A program made the position numbers and the translations under genes. Positions 59,650 to 63,875 of a stretch of DNA of 64,000 nucleotides are shown piece by piece. The DNA is from Mesorhizobium sp. (lineage in GTDB: Bacteria > Pseudomonadota > Alphaproteobacteria > Rhizobiales > Rhizobiaceae). Each line of letters starts with the position of its first letter. The first letter of the stretch is position 1. Where the stretch lies: NCBI GenBank assembly GCA_004017535.1, contig SAJS01000016.1, forward strand, positions 1-64,000, read 5' to 3'. The notes beneath the pieces are model-generated. The model made no database searches. It was not told the origin of the DNA and saw only the letters and a program-made list of their open reading frames with translations.

Positions 59650-60825
59650 TTATTCCTTGATGGTGACGACGATGCCTGCACCGACGGTGCGGCCGCCTTC
59701 ACGGATGGCGAAGCGCAGCTTCTCTTCCATCGCGATCGGCACGATCAGCTCGACGTCGACGGTGATGTTGTCGCCGGGCATCACCATCTCGGTGCCGGCC
59801 GGCAGCGTCACGATGCCTGTCACGTCCGTCGTGCGGAAGTAGAACTGCGGACGATAGTTGGTGAAGAACGGCGTGTGACGGCCACCCTCGTCCTTGGTCA
59901 GGATGTAGGCTTCGGCCACGAACTTCTTGTGCGGCTTCACCGAGCCCGGCTTGGCCAGAACCTGGCCGCGCTCGACGCCCTCGCGATCGATGCCGCGCAG
60001 CAGCGCGCCGATGTTGTCGCCCGCCTGGCCCTGGTCGAGCAGCTTGCGGAACATTTCCACGCCCGTGCAGGTCGTCTTGGCGGTCGGACGGATGCCGACG
60101 ATCTCCAGTTCCTCGCCGACCTTGACCACGCCGCGCTCGACGCGGCCGGTCACGACCGTGCCGCGGCCCGAGATCGAGAACACATCCTCGATCGGCATCA
60201 GGAACGGCTTGTCCAACGGACGAACAGGCGTCGGGATATAGGCGTCGACCTGGGCCATCAGCTCGCGGATGGCGTCCTCGCCGATGGTCTTGTTCGAGTC
60301 TTCAAGAGCAGCCAGCGCCGAGCCCTTGACGATCGGAATGTCGTCGCCGGGGAACTCGTTCTTCGACAGAAGCTCGCGAACCTCGAGCTCGACCAGCTCG
60401 AGCAGCTCGGCGTCGTCGACCTGGTCGACCTTGTTGAGGAACACCACGATCGAGGGCACGCCGACCTGACGGGCAAGCAGGATGTGCTCGCGGGTCTGCG
60501 GCATCGGGCCGTCGGCGGCCGACACAACCAGGATCGCGCCGTCCATCTGCGCGGCACCGGTGATCATGTTCTTCACATAGTCAGCGTGGCCGGGGCAGTC
60601 GACGTGGGCATAGTGACGGTTGGCCGTCTCATACTCGACATGCGCCGTCGAGATCGTGATGCCGCGCGCCTTCTCTTCGGGTGCTGCGTCGATCTGGTCA
60701 TAGCGCTTGTATTCGCCAAAATACTTCGTGATCGCCGCCGTCAGCGACGTCTTGCCATGATCGACGTGGCCGATCGTGCCAATGTTCACATGCGGCTTGG
60801 TGCGCTCGAATTTACCTTTTGCCAT
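59650..60825 (-). CDS. tuf: Elongation factor Tu
   Basis: 391 aa, the alphaproteobacterial length. GTPase that brings aminoacyl-tRNA to the ribosome. G1 [11 protein letters not shown]2 region [19 protein letters not shown]3 [13 protein letters not shown]4 NKVD, G5 GSALAAL. Related rhizobia have two nearly identical copies, one following fusA and one before tRNA-Trp/secE/nusG. Here the downstream side is that of the fusA copy (rpsJ), but fusA is not upstream. Confidence 0.98.
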
Positions 60826-61051
60826 AGTCTCTTTCCTTGGACGGCCTTGACCTTCAGTTCAGTCGAATGCGGGGCGATTAGCGACAACGGCCGAAAAACA
60901 CAAGTGCCTTGTGGCTGAGCGGATTCCCGCTCGACCCGAACCGACGGTCGATTTCAGGGGGTGTGGCTGGATATAGGGCTGCCGCGCGTAAAATCAAAGG
61001 CGCCTGACTGGCCCATTGCCGTCGCCGCGCCGCTCTGATCTTGTCGGCGGC

Positions 61052-61939
61052 ATGCAGGTCATTCCATCCAATATCCGCGGCCCGCTGTTCATGGTCGTCT
61101 CGACGGGGTCCTACCTCGTCAACGACACGATGATGAAGCTCGCGACAACGGGACTGCCGCCCTATGAAGTGCTGCTGCTGCGCGGCGCTGCCGCGACGCT
61201 GTGGGGCGTGCCGCTGCTCCTGATGCTGGGTTACGCCCGGCAGATCCCGCTGCTCTTCGAGCGCAAGGTGTTGCGCCGCAACCTGTTCGAGCTCTTGGCG
61301 ATCCTGTGCTATGTCGTCGCCCTGGCGAACATGCAGATTGCGGATTCCACCGCGCTCGGGCAGGTCACGCCGCTCATCGTGCTGGTCGGCTCCTCGATGC
61401 TGTTCGGCGAAAAGATCGGGGCCACGCGCATGGCGCTGATCGGCCTCGGCTTTGTCGGGGCGCTCATGGTCGCGCAGCCGACCATGCAGGGCATCTCGGT
61501 CTACGCGCTGCTGGCGCTCGGCAACGCCGCCTTTGCGGCGGTGCGCGATATAGCCGGCCGCAAGGTGGGCGCCGAGGTGCCCGGCATGATCGTCGCCATC
61601 TCCGCCGTCCTGGTGGTGCTGGTCGGCTCAGGCGCGGCGCATCTCGTATCCGAGCGATGGGTGATGCCGGAGGGTCGCCATCTGCTGCTTATCGCGGGTG
61701 CCGGCCTGTTCCTGATCTTCGGCCATTTCTTCATCTTCATGGCCTACCGGGTCGGGCCGACAAGTGCGGTCGCGCCCTTCTATTACTGCTTCACCGTATG
61801 GGCGGTGATTTCCGGCCTGCTGGTGTTCGGGCAGTTTCCCAATGCGCTCGCCGTCTGCGGCATCCTTTTGGTGATGGCCAGCGGCCTGGTGATCGTCTCG
61901 CTCGACGAGAGGCGCCGGCGAACGACAGTCATTGCCTGA
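61052..61939 (+). CDS. EamA/DMT-family transporter
   Basis: 295 aa, ten hydrophobic helices in two repeats (FMVVSTGSYLVNDTMMKLATTGLPPYEVLLLRGAAATLWG; VYALLALGNAAFAAVRDIAGRKVG). Substrate unknown. Start ATG 61052 (MQVIPSNIRGP) was chosen; TTG 61016 would add 12 polar residues. It is divergent from tuf. Confidence 0.9.
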   Translation: MQVIPSNIRGPLFMVVSTGSYLVNDTMMKLATTGLPPYEVLLLRGAAATLWGVPLLLMLGYARQIPLLFERKVLRRNLFELLAILCYVVALANMQIADSTALGQVTPLIVLVGSSMLFGEKIGATRMALIGLGFVGALMVAQPTMQGISVYALLALGNAAFAAVRDIAGRKVGAEVPGMIVAISAVLVVLVGSGAAHLVSERWVMPEGRHLLLIAGAGLFLIFGHFFIFMAYRVGPTSAVAPFYYCFTVWAVISGLLVFGQFPNALAVCGILLVMASGLVIVSLDERRRRTTVIA

Positions 61940-61963
61940 GCTGCTCGCCGAGCGCCAACCGGC

Positions 61964-62770
61964 CTAGTGACCTACGCGCATCGCCAGCGGGCGTTTGGCG
62001 AGGAAATTCCTGAAGTTCCGGAGCGTGCGCGGATAGAGAAGGCGGCCGTCGCGGAACGCTGTCGGATCACCGTTGACATGCAAGGAGGATGTTTCGCCGG
62101 GTTCGCCGTCAGGTATGCCGCCCCATCTTGCCGGGTCGTAGTAGTCGACGAGGAACGCGTAGTCGTATCGGCAAAAGCGCATCGCTTTTGCGAGGGCCGC
62201 GGGCGACAGGTCGGACGGACTGACCTTCCTCCTTGCCGCCTGCAGCCTCGGTATGGCGATTTCCCTGCCGCTCACCGATGAGAGGAATGCCTCCACCTTG
62301 TTCATTTCTTCAAACCTGAAGACGCGCTCGAACAGGAAAAGGCTGGAGCCGACGAAATGACGCGGTGATGCGACATGGAATCGTATCTCCCACGAGGACG
62401 CGCTGTATTTTTCGACGTTGAGGATGAAAGTGTCGAGGTCAGGATCGGTCGGCAGCCCGAAAGCCTCGAGCATTTCGGCCTTGGTCGACGAGCGCATCAG
62501 AACATTGGTGTCCAATACCCTGCTGGAATAGGCGGAGAGAAGCCGCTCCAGCGGATCGCGAACAATGGTGAACTTGTGGCGTAGGCCGTCATAGACCGGA
62601 GCAAACGGATCAACCCAACTGGTGAACAGGTGGCTGTGCACTTCATTATCGGGGTCAGCCAAGGGCGCTTGCTTGCCGCGCAGCGACATCAGCGCGTATT
62701 TGATACTACTGGAGCCGCTTTTGGGGATGGGATAGTAGGTGACCGGGAGCTTCTCAGCCTGAATTGCCAT
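61964..62770 (-). CDS. Sulfotransferase family 2 protein
   Basis: 268 aa. Cytosolic PAPS-dependent sulfotransferase of the carbohydrate type: the 5'-phosphosulfate loop is YYPIPKSGSSSIKYALMS near residue 12 and the 3'-phosphate site is FTIVRDPLERLLSAYSSRV near residue 69. The acceptor is unknown; in rhizobia sulfotransferases decorate Nod factors (NodH) or lipopolysaccharide (LpsS), but this one belongs to neither by obvious sequence. Start at 62770 has AAAGGATCGGAG upstream; the longer frame to 62920 would overlap glsB. Confidence 0.85.
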   Translation of the reverse strand: MAIQAEKLPVTYYPIPKSGSSSIKYALMSLRGKQAPLADPDNEVHSHLFTSWVDPFAPVYDGLRHKFTIVRDPLERLLSAYSSRVLDTNVLMRSSTKAEMLEAFGLPTDPDLDTFILNVEKYSASSWEIRFHVASPRHFVGSSLFLFERVFRFEEMNKVEAFLSSVSGREIAIPRLQAARRKVSPSDLSPAALAKAMRFCRYDYAFLVDYYDPARWGGIPDGEPGETSSLHVNGDPTAFRDGRLLYPRTLRNFRNFLAKRPLAMRVGH

Positions 62771-62880
62771 CTCCGATCCTTTGCCGGCCAATGCCAATGT
62801 GTCGCCGTACGATCGCACGAACGCGATCGTCTCCGATTTCAACGTTATGGCCGCAGCCGATGGCTGCGGCTTGTCGGCCT

Positions 62881-63138: not shown

Positions 63139-63267
63139 GATTCCCTCCAAATTCCCCGCCCCCGCCATCATGGTCACATGATTGTCAAAAGCTCAAGACA
63201 GCTTGAAATTCCGCCTGTTTGGGCCATTCTGGGGACGGGCGGACTTGGCTGGACAAGGAGATCCACG

Positions 63268-63723
63268 ATGGGCCTTTTCGACAATGCCGTTCCCGGCGGG
63301 AATATCACCAAACCGCTGATGATCGCGCTCGGCGCGCTTTTGGTCGGCAAGATGCTCAGCGGCAAAAGTGAGGAACCGGCCGCGCCGCAAGTGCCGGCGC
63401 CGGCGCCTGCTGGGACCGGCGCGTCCGCCGATGGCGGCCTGCTCGGTGGGCTCGGCGGACTGCTCGACAAGCTCAGGGATGCCGGCCACGGCAATGTCGC
63501 CGACTCCTGGGTCGGCACCGGCCAGAACCAGCCGATTCACCCGAGCGATCTCGGCTCGGCGCTCGGGCCGGCGGTGATCCGCGAGATCGCCCAGCGCACC
63601 GGCATGAACGAGCAGGAGCTGCTGCAGCAACTCTCCACGGCGCTGCCCGGCATCGTCGACAAGCTGACACCGAACGGCCAGATCCCGCAGAACCATCAGG
63701 TCGCTTCGGCTTTCAACAGCTGA
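63268..63723 (+). CDS. YidB-like (DUF937) protein
   Basis: 151 aa. MGLFDNAVPGGNITKPLMIALGALLVGKMLSG, a Pro/Ala linker, a Gly/Leu-rich GGLLGGLGGLLDKLRDAGHG, then the family domain VADSWVGTGQNQPIHPSDLGSALGPAVIREIAQRTGMNEQELLQQLSTALPGIVDKLTPNGQIP. Function unknown. AAGGAG lies before ATG 63268. Confidence 0.9.
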   Translation: MGLFDNAVPGGNITKPLMIALGALLVGKMLSGKSEEPAAPQVPAPAPAGTGASADGGLLGGLGGLLDKLRDAGHGNVADSWVGTGQNQPIHPSDLGSALGPAVIREIAQRTGMNEQELLQQLSTALPGIVDKLTPNGQIPQNHQVASAFNS

Positions 63724-63742
63724 GTGGCTGGACGAAAGGCAA

Positions 63743-63773
63743 TGCGCTGCGCGCTACGGCGCGCGGCGTTTTT
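63743..63773 (+). terminator. Terminator of the YidB-like gene
   Basis: TGCGCTGCGCGC...GCGCGCGGCG followed by TTTTTG, 20 bp after the stop. The stem is imperfect. Confidence 0.6.
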
Positions 63774-63801
63774 GTGCGATTGGCGGCAGGGGCGGGAAAT
63801 C

Positions 63802-63875
63802 TGGAGCGGGTAGCGGGAATCGAACCCGCATATTCAGCTTGGAAGGCTGCTGCTCTACCACTGAGCTATACCCGC
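63802..63875 (-). tRNA. tRNA-Gly (anticodon TCC)
   Basis: On the minus strand GCGGGTA...TACCCGC acceptor stem, GCTCAGTGGTAGAGC D arm, anticodon stem-loop CAGCCTTCCAAGCTG with TCC, T arm GCGGGTTCGATTCCCGC. The CCA end is encoded (63804-63802). All arms pair. Confidence 0.97.

Follow-up and report, generated by a model that had tools for sequence, protein, structure and literature searches.

Where has a block of essential genes gone when the sequences expected on either side of it are found joined through a single gene? The question is raised by a 64,000-bp stretch of DNA (the window; bases 1-64,000 of the 148,552-bp contig C7) from a Mesorhizobium-group draft genome of 6.86 Mb in 73 contigs, in which tuf, encoding EF-Tu, stands between an EamA-family transporter gene and rpsJ. 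As the original prediction for this locus had described, rpsJ and the S10 operon come after tuf, on the same strand, and no rpsL-rpsG-fusA lies ahead of tuf in the window. We conclude that the EamA-tuf-rpsJ junction is very probably a collapsed tuf repeat in the draft assembly, with the block left as a separate contig, C31. The features on which the argument turns are listed below, "finished" denoting throughout an assembly with five contigs or fewer.

59650-60825, minus strand: tuf (EF-Tu; Pfam GTP_EFTU, D2 and D3), the only full tuf found in the assembly
59276-59581, minus strand: rpsJ (Pfam), first gene of the S10 operon, which adjoins tuf in finished relatives too
61016-61939, plus strand: EamA-family transporter
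59681-60825, minus strand: putative collapsed repeat node of 1145 bp, tuf bases 1-1145, its limits taken from the exact overlaps with the ends of C31
59681-59757, minus strand: exact match to the first 77 bases of C31 (tuf 1069-1145)
60749-60825, minus strand: exact match to the last 77 bases of C31 (tuf 1-77)

The missing block and the ends of its contig

The original prediction held that the missing block, being essential, must lie elsewhere or on another contig, perhaps bounded by a second tuf, and this is what is found. A search for EF-Tu over the whole assembly, in which contigs reading as N could not yield matches, returned ten matches: the one full tuf on C7, two short pieces of tuf, one at either end of C31, and seven that fell far short of the curated cut-off, fusA (C31:20820) among them. 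C31 is 23,028 bp long, starts in the 3' end of tuf and stops in the 5' end of tuf. Between these pieces it carries first a gene weakly matching ClpP, then others (a globin among them), and next tRNA-Trp, secE, nusG, rplK, rplA, rplJ and rplL, followed by rpoB, rpoC, rpsL, rpsG and fusA. All four tuf ends, two outer and two inner, occur in this genome, and the two full copies are not both assembled.

The boundaries of the identity between C31 and the window tuf are sharp. After its first 77 bases C31 diverges at tuf base 1146 (C for T, a silent change) and again past the stop codon; at the other end, beyond the last 77 bases, the sequences of C31 and C7 differ 5' of the ATG. These 77 bases are most likely the k-mer overlap of the assembler, because four other pairs of contig ends have exactly 77 leading bases in common (C2/C73, C5/C66 right, C7/C33 and C13/C21). 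The ends compared were the starts of the 72 other contigs, 46 of which carry letters and 26 N, together with five right ends. The value 77 is a usual largest k of a common short-read assembler.

A stretch of approximately 4.6 kb of other genes, including the weak ClpP match and the globin, separates the first tuf from tRNA-Trp (L009; G000:C31, 192-4534, G000 being the present genome). Segments within it resemble one another and differ among relatives.

Taken together, these features are most simply accounted for by the following course of events. The true order would be EamA-tuf(1)-[C31: 4.6 kb of accessory genes, tRNA-Trp, secE-nusG-rplKAJL-rpoBC-rpsLG-fusA]-tuf(2)-rpsJ-S10 operon. Over bases 1-1145 the tuf copies would act as one repeat, giving a single de Bruijn graph node with two entries and two exits. 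The assembler would then have passed from the EamA flank through the node directly to rpsJ, walking the node once on C7, and the loop between the copies would have been emitted as C31, with a 77-base k-mer of tuf retained at either end. Short reads, the topology of the graph, the path of the assembler and the identity of the true copies over the node are what we infer in this account.

The genome thus described would very probably have two tuf genes in the order of its finished relatives. The window tuf is then very probably a merged copy, with a 5' flank from the EamA-side copy and a 3' flank from the S10-side copy; EamA is, with the same high probability, the true upstream neighbour of the first tuf, and rpsJ the true downstream neighbour of the second. 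The protein is unchanged at the sole known difference between the copies, that at base 1146. The sequence lost at the window tuf would amount to 24,019 bp, made up of the unique part of C31 (22,874 bp) and a second node (1,145 bp). Restoring it would lengthen the EamA-rpsJ gap from 1,434 to 25,453 bp, and the corresponding gap in the finished genome G117 is 25,429 bp. C7 and C31 also align head to tail on G117 and on G104, in the order EamA side, C31, S10 side.

Gene order across the genus

Gene order was compared in 146 genomes of the genus, the present one included. The search for EamA matched in 128 of them and that for rpsJ in 141; 126 have both markers, and in 66 these lie on the same contig. 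Every finished genome with both markers (35/35) has a long gap between them, of 22.2-29.2 kb in 34 and of 102.9 kb in G017, the content of the gap having been verified in G117, G104 and G017. Among the 31 drafts with both markers on one contig, the gap is 21.4-27.4 kb in 24, and seven, including this genome, have a short junction of 1.4-3.1 kb. Outside this count stand 20 of the 146 genomes, which lack either an EamA or an rpsJ match, and 60 drafts with the markers on different contigs.

Two tuf loci on one contig and in the same direction are present in 37 of the 38 genus assemblies with five contigs or fewer, where G074, G102 and G103, each with one tuf split in two pieces by a frame change, are scored as two-tuf genomes. 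Finished G117, G076 and G104 combine two tufs with the long EamA-rpsJ gap, and both tuf proteins of G117 are identical to that of the window. G092 and G141, likewise in five contigs or fewer and with no EamA match, have two tufs separated by 23-25 kb, one of them adjoining rpsJ. The layout that the original prediction had described for relatives, with two tufs in the same direction around the block, stands in these 37 assemblies; its further detail, that the first tuf precedes tRNA-Trp, is incomplete here, given the approximately 4.6 kb of other genes between them.

Collapse is strongly favoured over a real rearrangement by the overlaps of exactly 77 bases, which C31 shows at both ends and which recur in the four other pairs, together with the order of two tufs seen in 37 of the 38 assemblies with five contigs or fewer. 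The original prediction had left these two readings side by side. The same overlaps and the same gene order uphold the first, and the second finds no counterpart in any of the 35 finished genomes with both markers. An EamA-tuf-rpsJ order in finished relatives, which had been named as the observation that would mark the junction as normal, was likewise found in 0/35.

The unusually long gap of G017 (G017:C1:5940000-6047000; L194-L199) contains an insertion of approximately 76 kb at tRNA-Trp, placed between the first tuf and secE. At its far end the final 49 bases of tRNA-Trp occur again, and a gene of the MobA/MobL relaxase family lies near the tRNA. A frame beside the tRNA looks integrase-like by eye, and Pfam matched no family to it. 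The insertion resembles an integrative conjugative element.

The same junction in other assemblies

The short junction occurs in at least eight of the 146 genus genomes (G000, G054, G061, G146, G147, G148, G149 and G150, the last five also being represented among the named loci below). This is a lower bound, since G061, G092 and G141 were the genomes looked at further among the 20 that miss a marker. G105, G013, G027, G053 and G055 were taken as G146, G149, G147, G148 and G150, respectively, on identical contig numbers and positions. In all seven of the other junction genomes, one contig distinct from that of the junction holds pieces of tuf along with a fusA-like frame and rpoC. Tuf sits at both ends of this block contig in G147, G148, G150, G054 and G061, at one end in G146, and internally in G149.

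The exact end overlaps, available for all eight assemblies except G149 (no tuf lies at the ends of its block contig), are 77/77 in G000, 95/95 in G147, 70/70 in G148, 63/63 in G061, 74/75 in G150, 104/77 in G054 and 0/77 in G146. They are thus mostly equal within one assembly and different between assemblies. The absence of an overlap at one end in G146 arises because the left end of its block contig falls among the accessory genes.

G061 is the 38th of the assemblies with five contigs or fewer and has the same false junction. It consists of two contigs and has no EamA match; its 3.73-Mb contig carries tRNA-Tyr, tRNA-Gly, a tuf interrupted by runs of N, and rpsJ. The block makes up its only other contig (20,886 bp), with 3' and 5' pieces of tuf at its ends, overlaps of 63 bp, tRNA-Trp and rpoC. 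In G147, G148, G150 and G054 there are a few single N inside the junction tuf. Such single N could reflect disagreement between merged copies, and masking could produce them too.

The block contig of G150 (G150:C27; L178, L179; Mesorhizobium sp. LSHC420B00) measures 65,868 bp, as against the usual ~23 kb, and may also hold a large insertion.

A sample of 80 named loci around EamA was scanned for tuf as well. A tuf match lies beside EamA, on the same side as here, in 72 of the 80, and in 32 of those 72 the record starts within three bases of the match. Tuf is followed by rpsJ in five loci, namely L105 (B2-7-1), L136 (M. loti CJ3sym), L146 (L2C084A000), L149 and L152 (LSHC420B00), all of them whole-genome shotgun drafts by title. 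In four records titled complete (L108, L128, L134 and L160), tuf is followed by the head of C31 and tRNA-Trp. In six named drafts (L109, L114, L129, L131, L161 and L163) a full or near-full tuf is accompanied by an adjacent second fragment covering the first 35-44 codons of the gene, apparently a seam left by assembly at this same repeat.

Weighing the alternatives

Several observations sit less comfortably with a collapsed repeat. Not every overlap in this assembly is of 77 bases, the end-to-end overlaps of C4/C23 and C25/C55 being 74 and 45 bases, respectively, and the two ends are unequal in two of the seven assemblies measured (G146 and G054). A piece of tuf on short contigs would escape where these read as N, as 26 of the 72 contig starts do (C31 apart). 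The tuf copies of finished genomes differ from each other at 9 (G117), 14 (G104) and 24 (G017) positions; identity over 1145 bp in the present genome is accordingly inferred, from the contig ends, and popped bubbles could hide differences between the copies here. Finally, the case is built from contig sequences, whose ends fit a linear order A-tuf-B-tuf-C and an excised circle (A-tuf-C plus the circle) alike.

It is this last point that gives a real excision its opening. Recombination between the direct tuf copies might have released the block as a ~24-kb circle (tuf plus C31), leaving a chromosome with one tuf. A rotated loop through an intact tuf is indeed seen in the block contig of M. erdmanii USDA 3471 (G149; L149), which runs from rplL back to the head of the block, crosses a whole tuf into fusA and continues as far as rpoB. 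This loop is cut between rplL and rpoB, with ends approximately 58 bp apart in C31 coordinates. It illustrates how an assembler can treat the block, and alone would fit a circle too; since its ends have no overlap, a circle is not proved by it. A block with RNA polymerase and ribosomal genes, moreover, would as a circle need its own replication and partition. A stretch of at least the size of the block lies between the markers, on one contig, in all 35 finished genomes that have both, and the recurrence of the junction in seven other assemblies is what a shared assembly problem would give. Excision is on these grounds highly improbable, and we would give no better chance to the narrower proposal that some of the cells, at least, carry the block as a 24-kb one-tuf circle released by tuf recombination, and that this is the form which the assembly recorded.

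A real rearrangement, in which the block was relocated to another chromosomal site, draws on the contiguity of EamA, tuf and rpsJ in C7 and is just as improbable. If the block had moved with a tuf on each side, further tuf flanks would be needed, and tuf was found only on C7 and the ends of C31 (short contigs reading as N being unsearchable); the order EamA-tuf-rpsJ, too, is seen in none of the 35 finished relatives with both markers. Least credible of all is an old, normal layout of the lineage, with a single tuf before rpsJ and the rpoBC-fusA block elsewhere, for although the upstream flank stands next to tuf-rpsJ in seven other genus assemblies, in all seven rpoC is on a different contig with tuf sequence internally or at one or both of its ends, and G117, G076 and G104 show two tufs and the long gap, with the content of the block verified in the first and last of these. 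Relocation of the block, a single-tuf old layout and an excised circle were all rejected on the grounds given above.

Surroundings of the junction

The four unrelated genes and two tRNA genes that the original prediction had placed upstream of tuf are all there. They comprise EamA and the following features.

61964-62920, minus strand: Sulfotransfer_2 family gene
62881-63177, minus strand: Transgly_assoc, GlsB/YeaQ-like membrane protein
about 63262-63723, plus strand: YidB-like protein
63802-63875, minus strand: tRNA-Gly(TCC) (ARAGORN)
63964-64048 of the contig, minus strand: tRNA-Tyr(GTA), cut at 64000 by the end of the window (found by ARAGORN on the longer stretch L011, positions converted, and missed by it within the window)

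On the S10 side, where Pfam was applied to tuf and rpsJ only, the open frames after rpsJ on the same strand read as rplC, rplD, rplW, rplB, rpsS, rplV and rpsC, as named by eye. Bases 1-77 of the window are the first 77 of contig C33, so that C7 begins at another unresolved repeat.

Relation to known systems and significance

Concerted evolution of tuf has been reported from 29 bacterial orders (PMC6053082), and gene conversion of tuf is known in Salmonella (PMC5485169). The present locus resembles such tufA/tufB duplicates, kept alike by gene conversion, in that it would have two near-identical tufs, one before secE-nusG-rpoBC and one after rpsLG-fusA; this draft differs in that one copy is absent from the assembly. 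In most finished genomes of the genus the copies lie in the same direction, approximately 21-28 kb apart, whereas those of Salmonella are described as inverted and 762 kb apart (PMC5485169).

The closer likeness is to the collapsed repeat of short-read de Bruijn assembly, in which a repeat longer than the reads is kept once and the loop becomes a contig of its own with k-mer overlaps at its ends. No material difference from this pattern is seen here: there is one full tuf as against two in relatives, the block contig is bounded by the repeat, and the end overlaps, those of C4/C23 and C25/C55 apart, are of fixed length. In the Pebble component of Velvet, looping regions are described as jumped over rather than resolved (PMC2793427). 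Judging by titles, this tuf collapse is not described in the literature searched on tuf, gene conversion and repeat resolution.

The junction is very probably, then, an ordinary and explained artefact and not a real genomic feature. The finding removes a false rearrangement and shows how one may be recognised. As G061 illustrates, an assembly of two contigs may seem almost complete and yet have as its second contig nothing more than the block from between the tufs. With the junction in at least 8 of 146 genomes, neither the copy number of tuf nor the gene order flanking the S10 operon should be read from such drafts.

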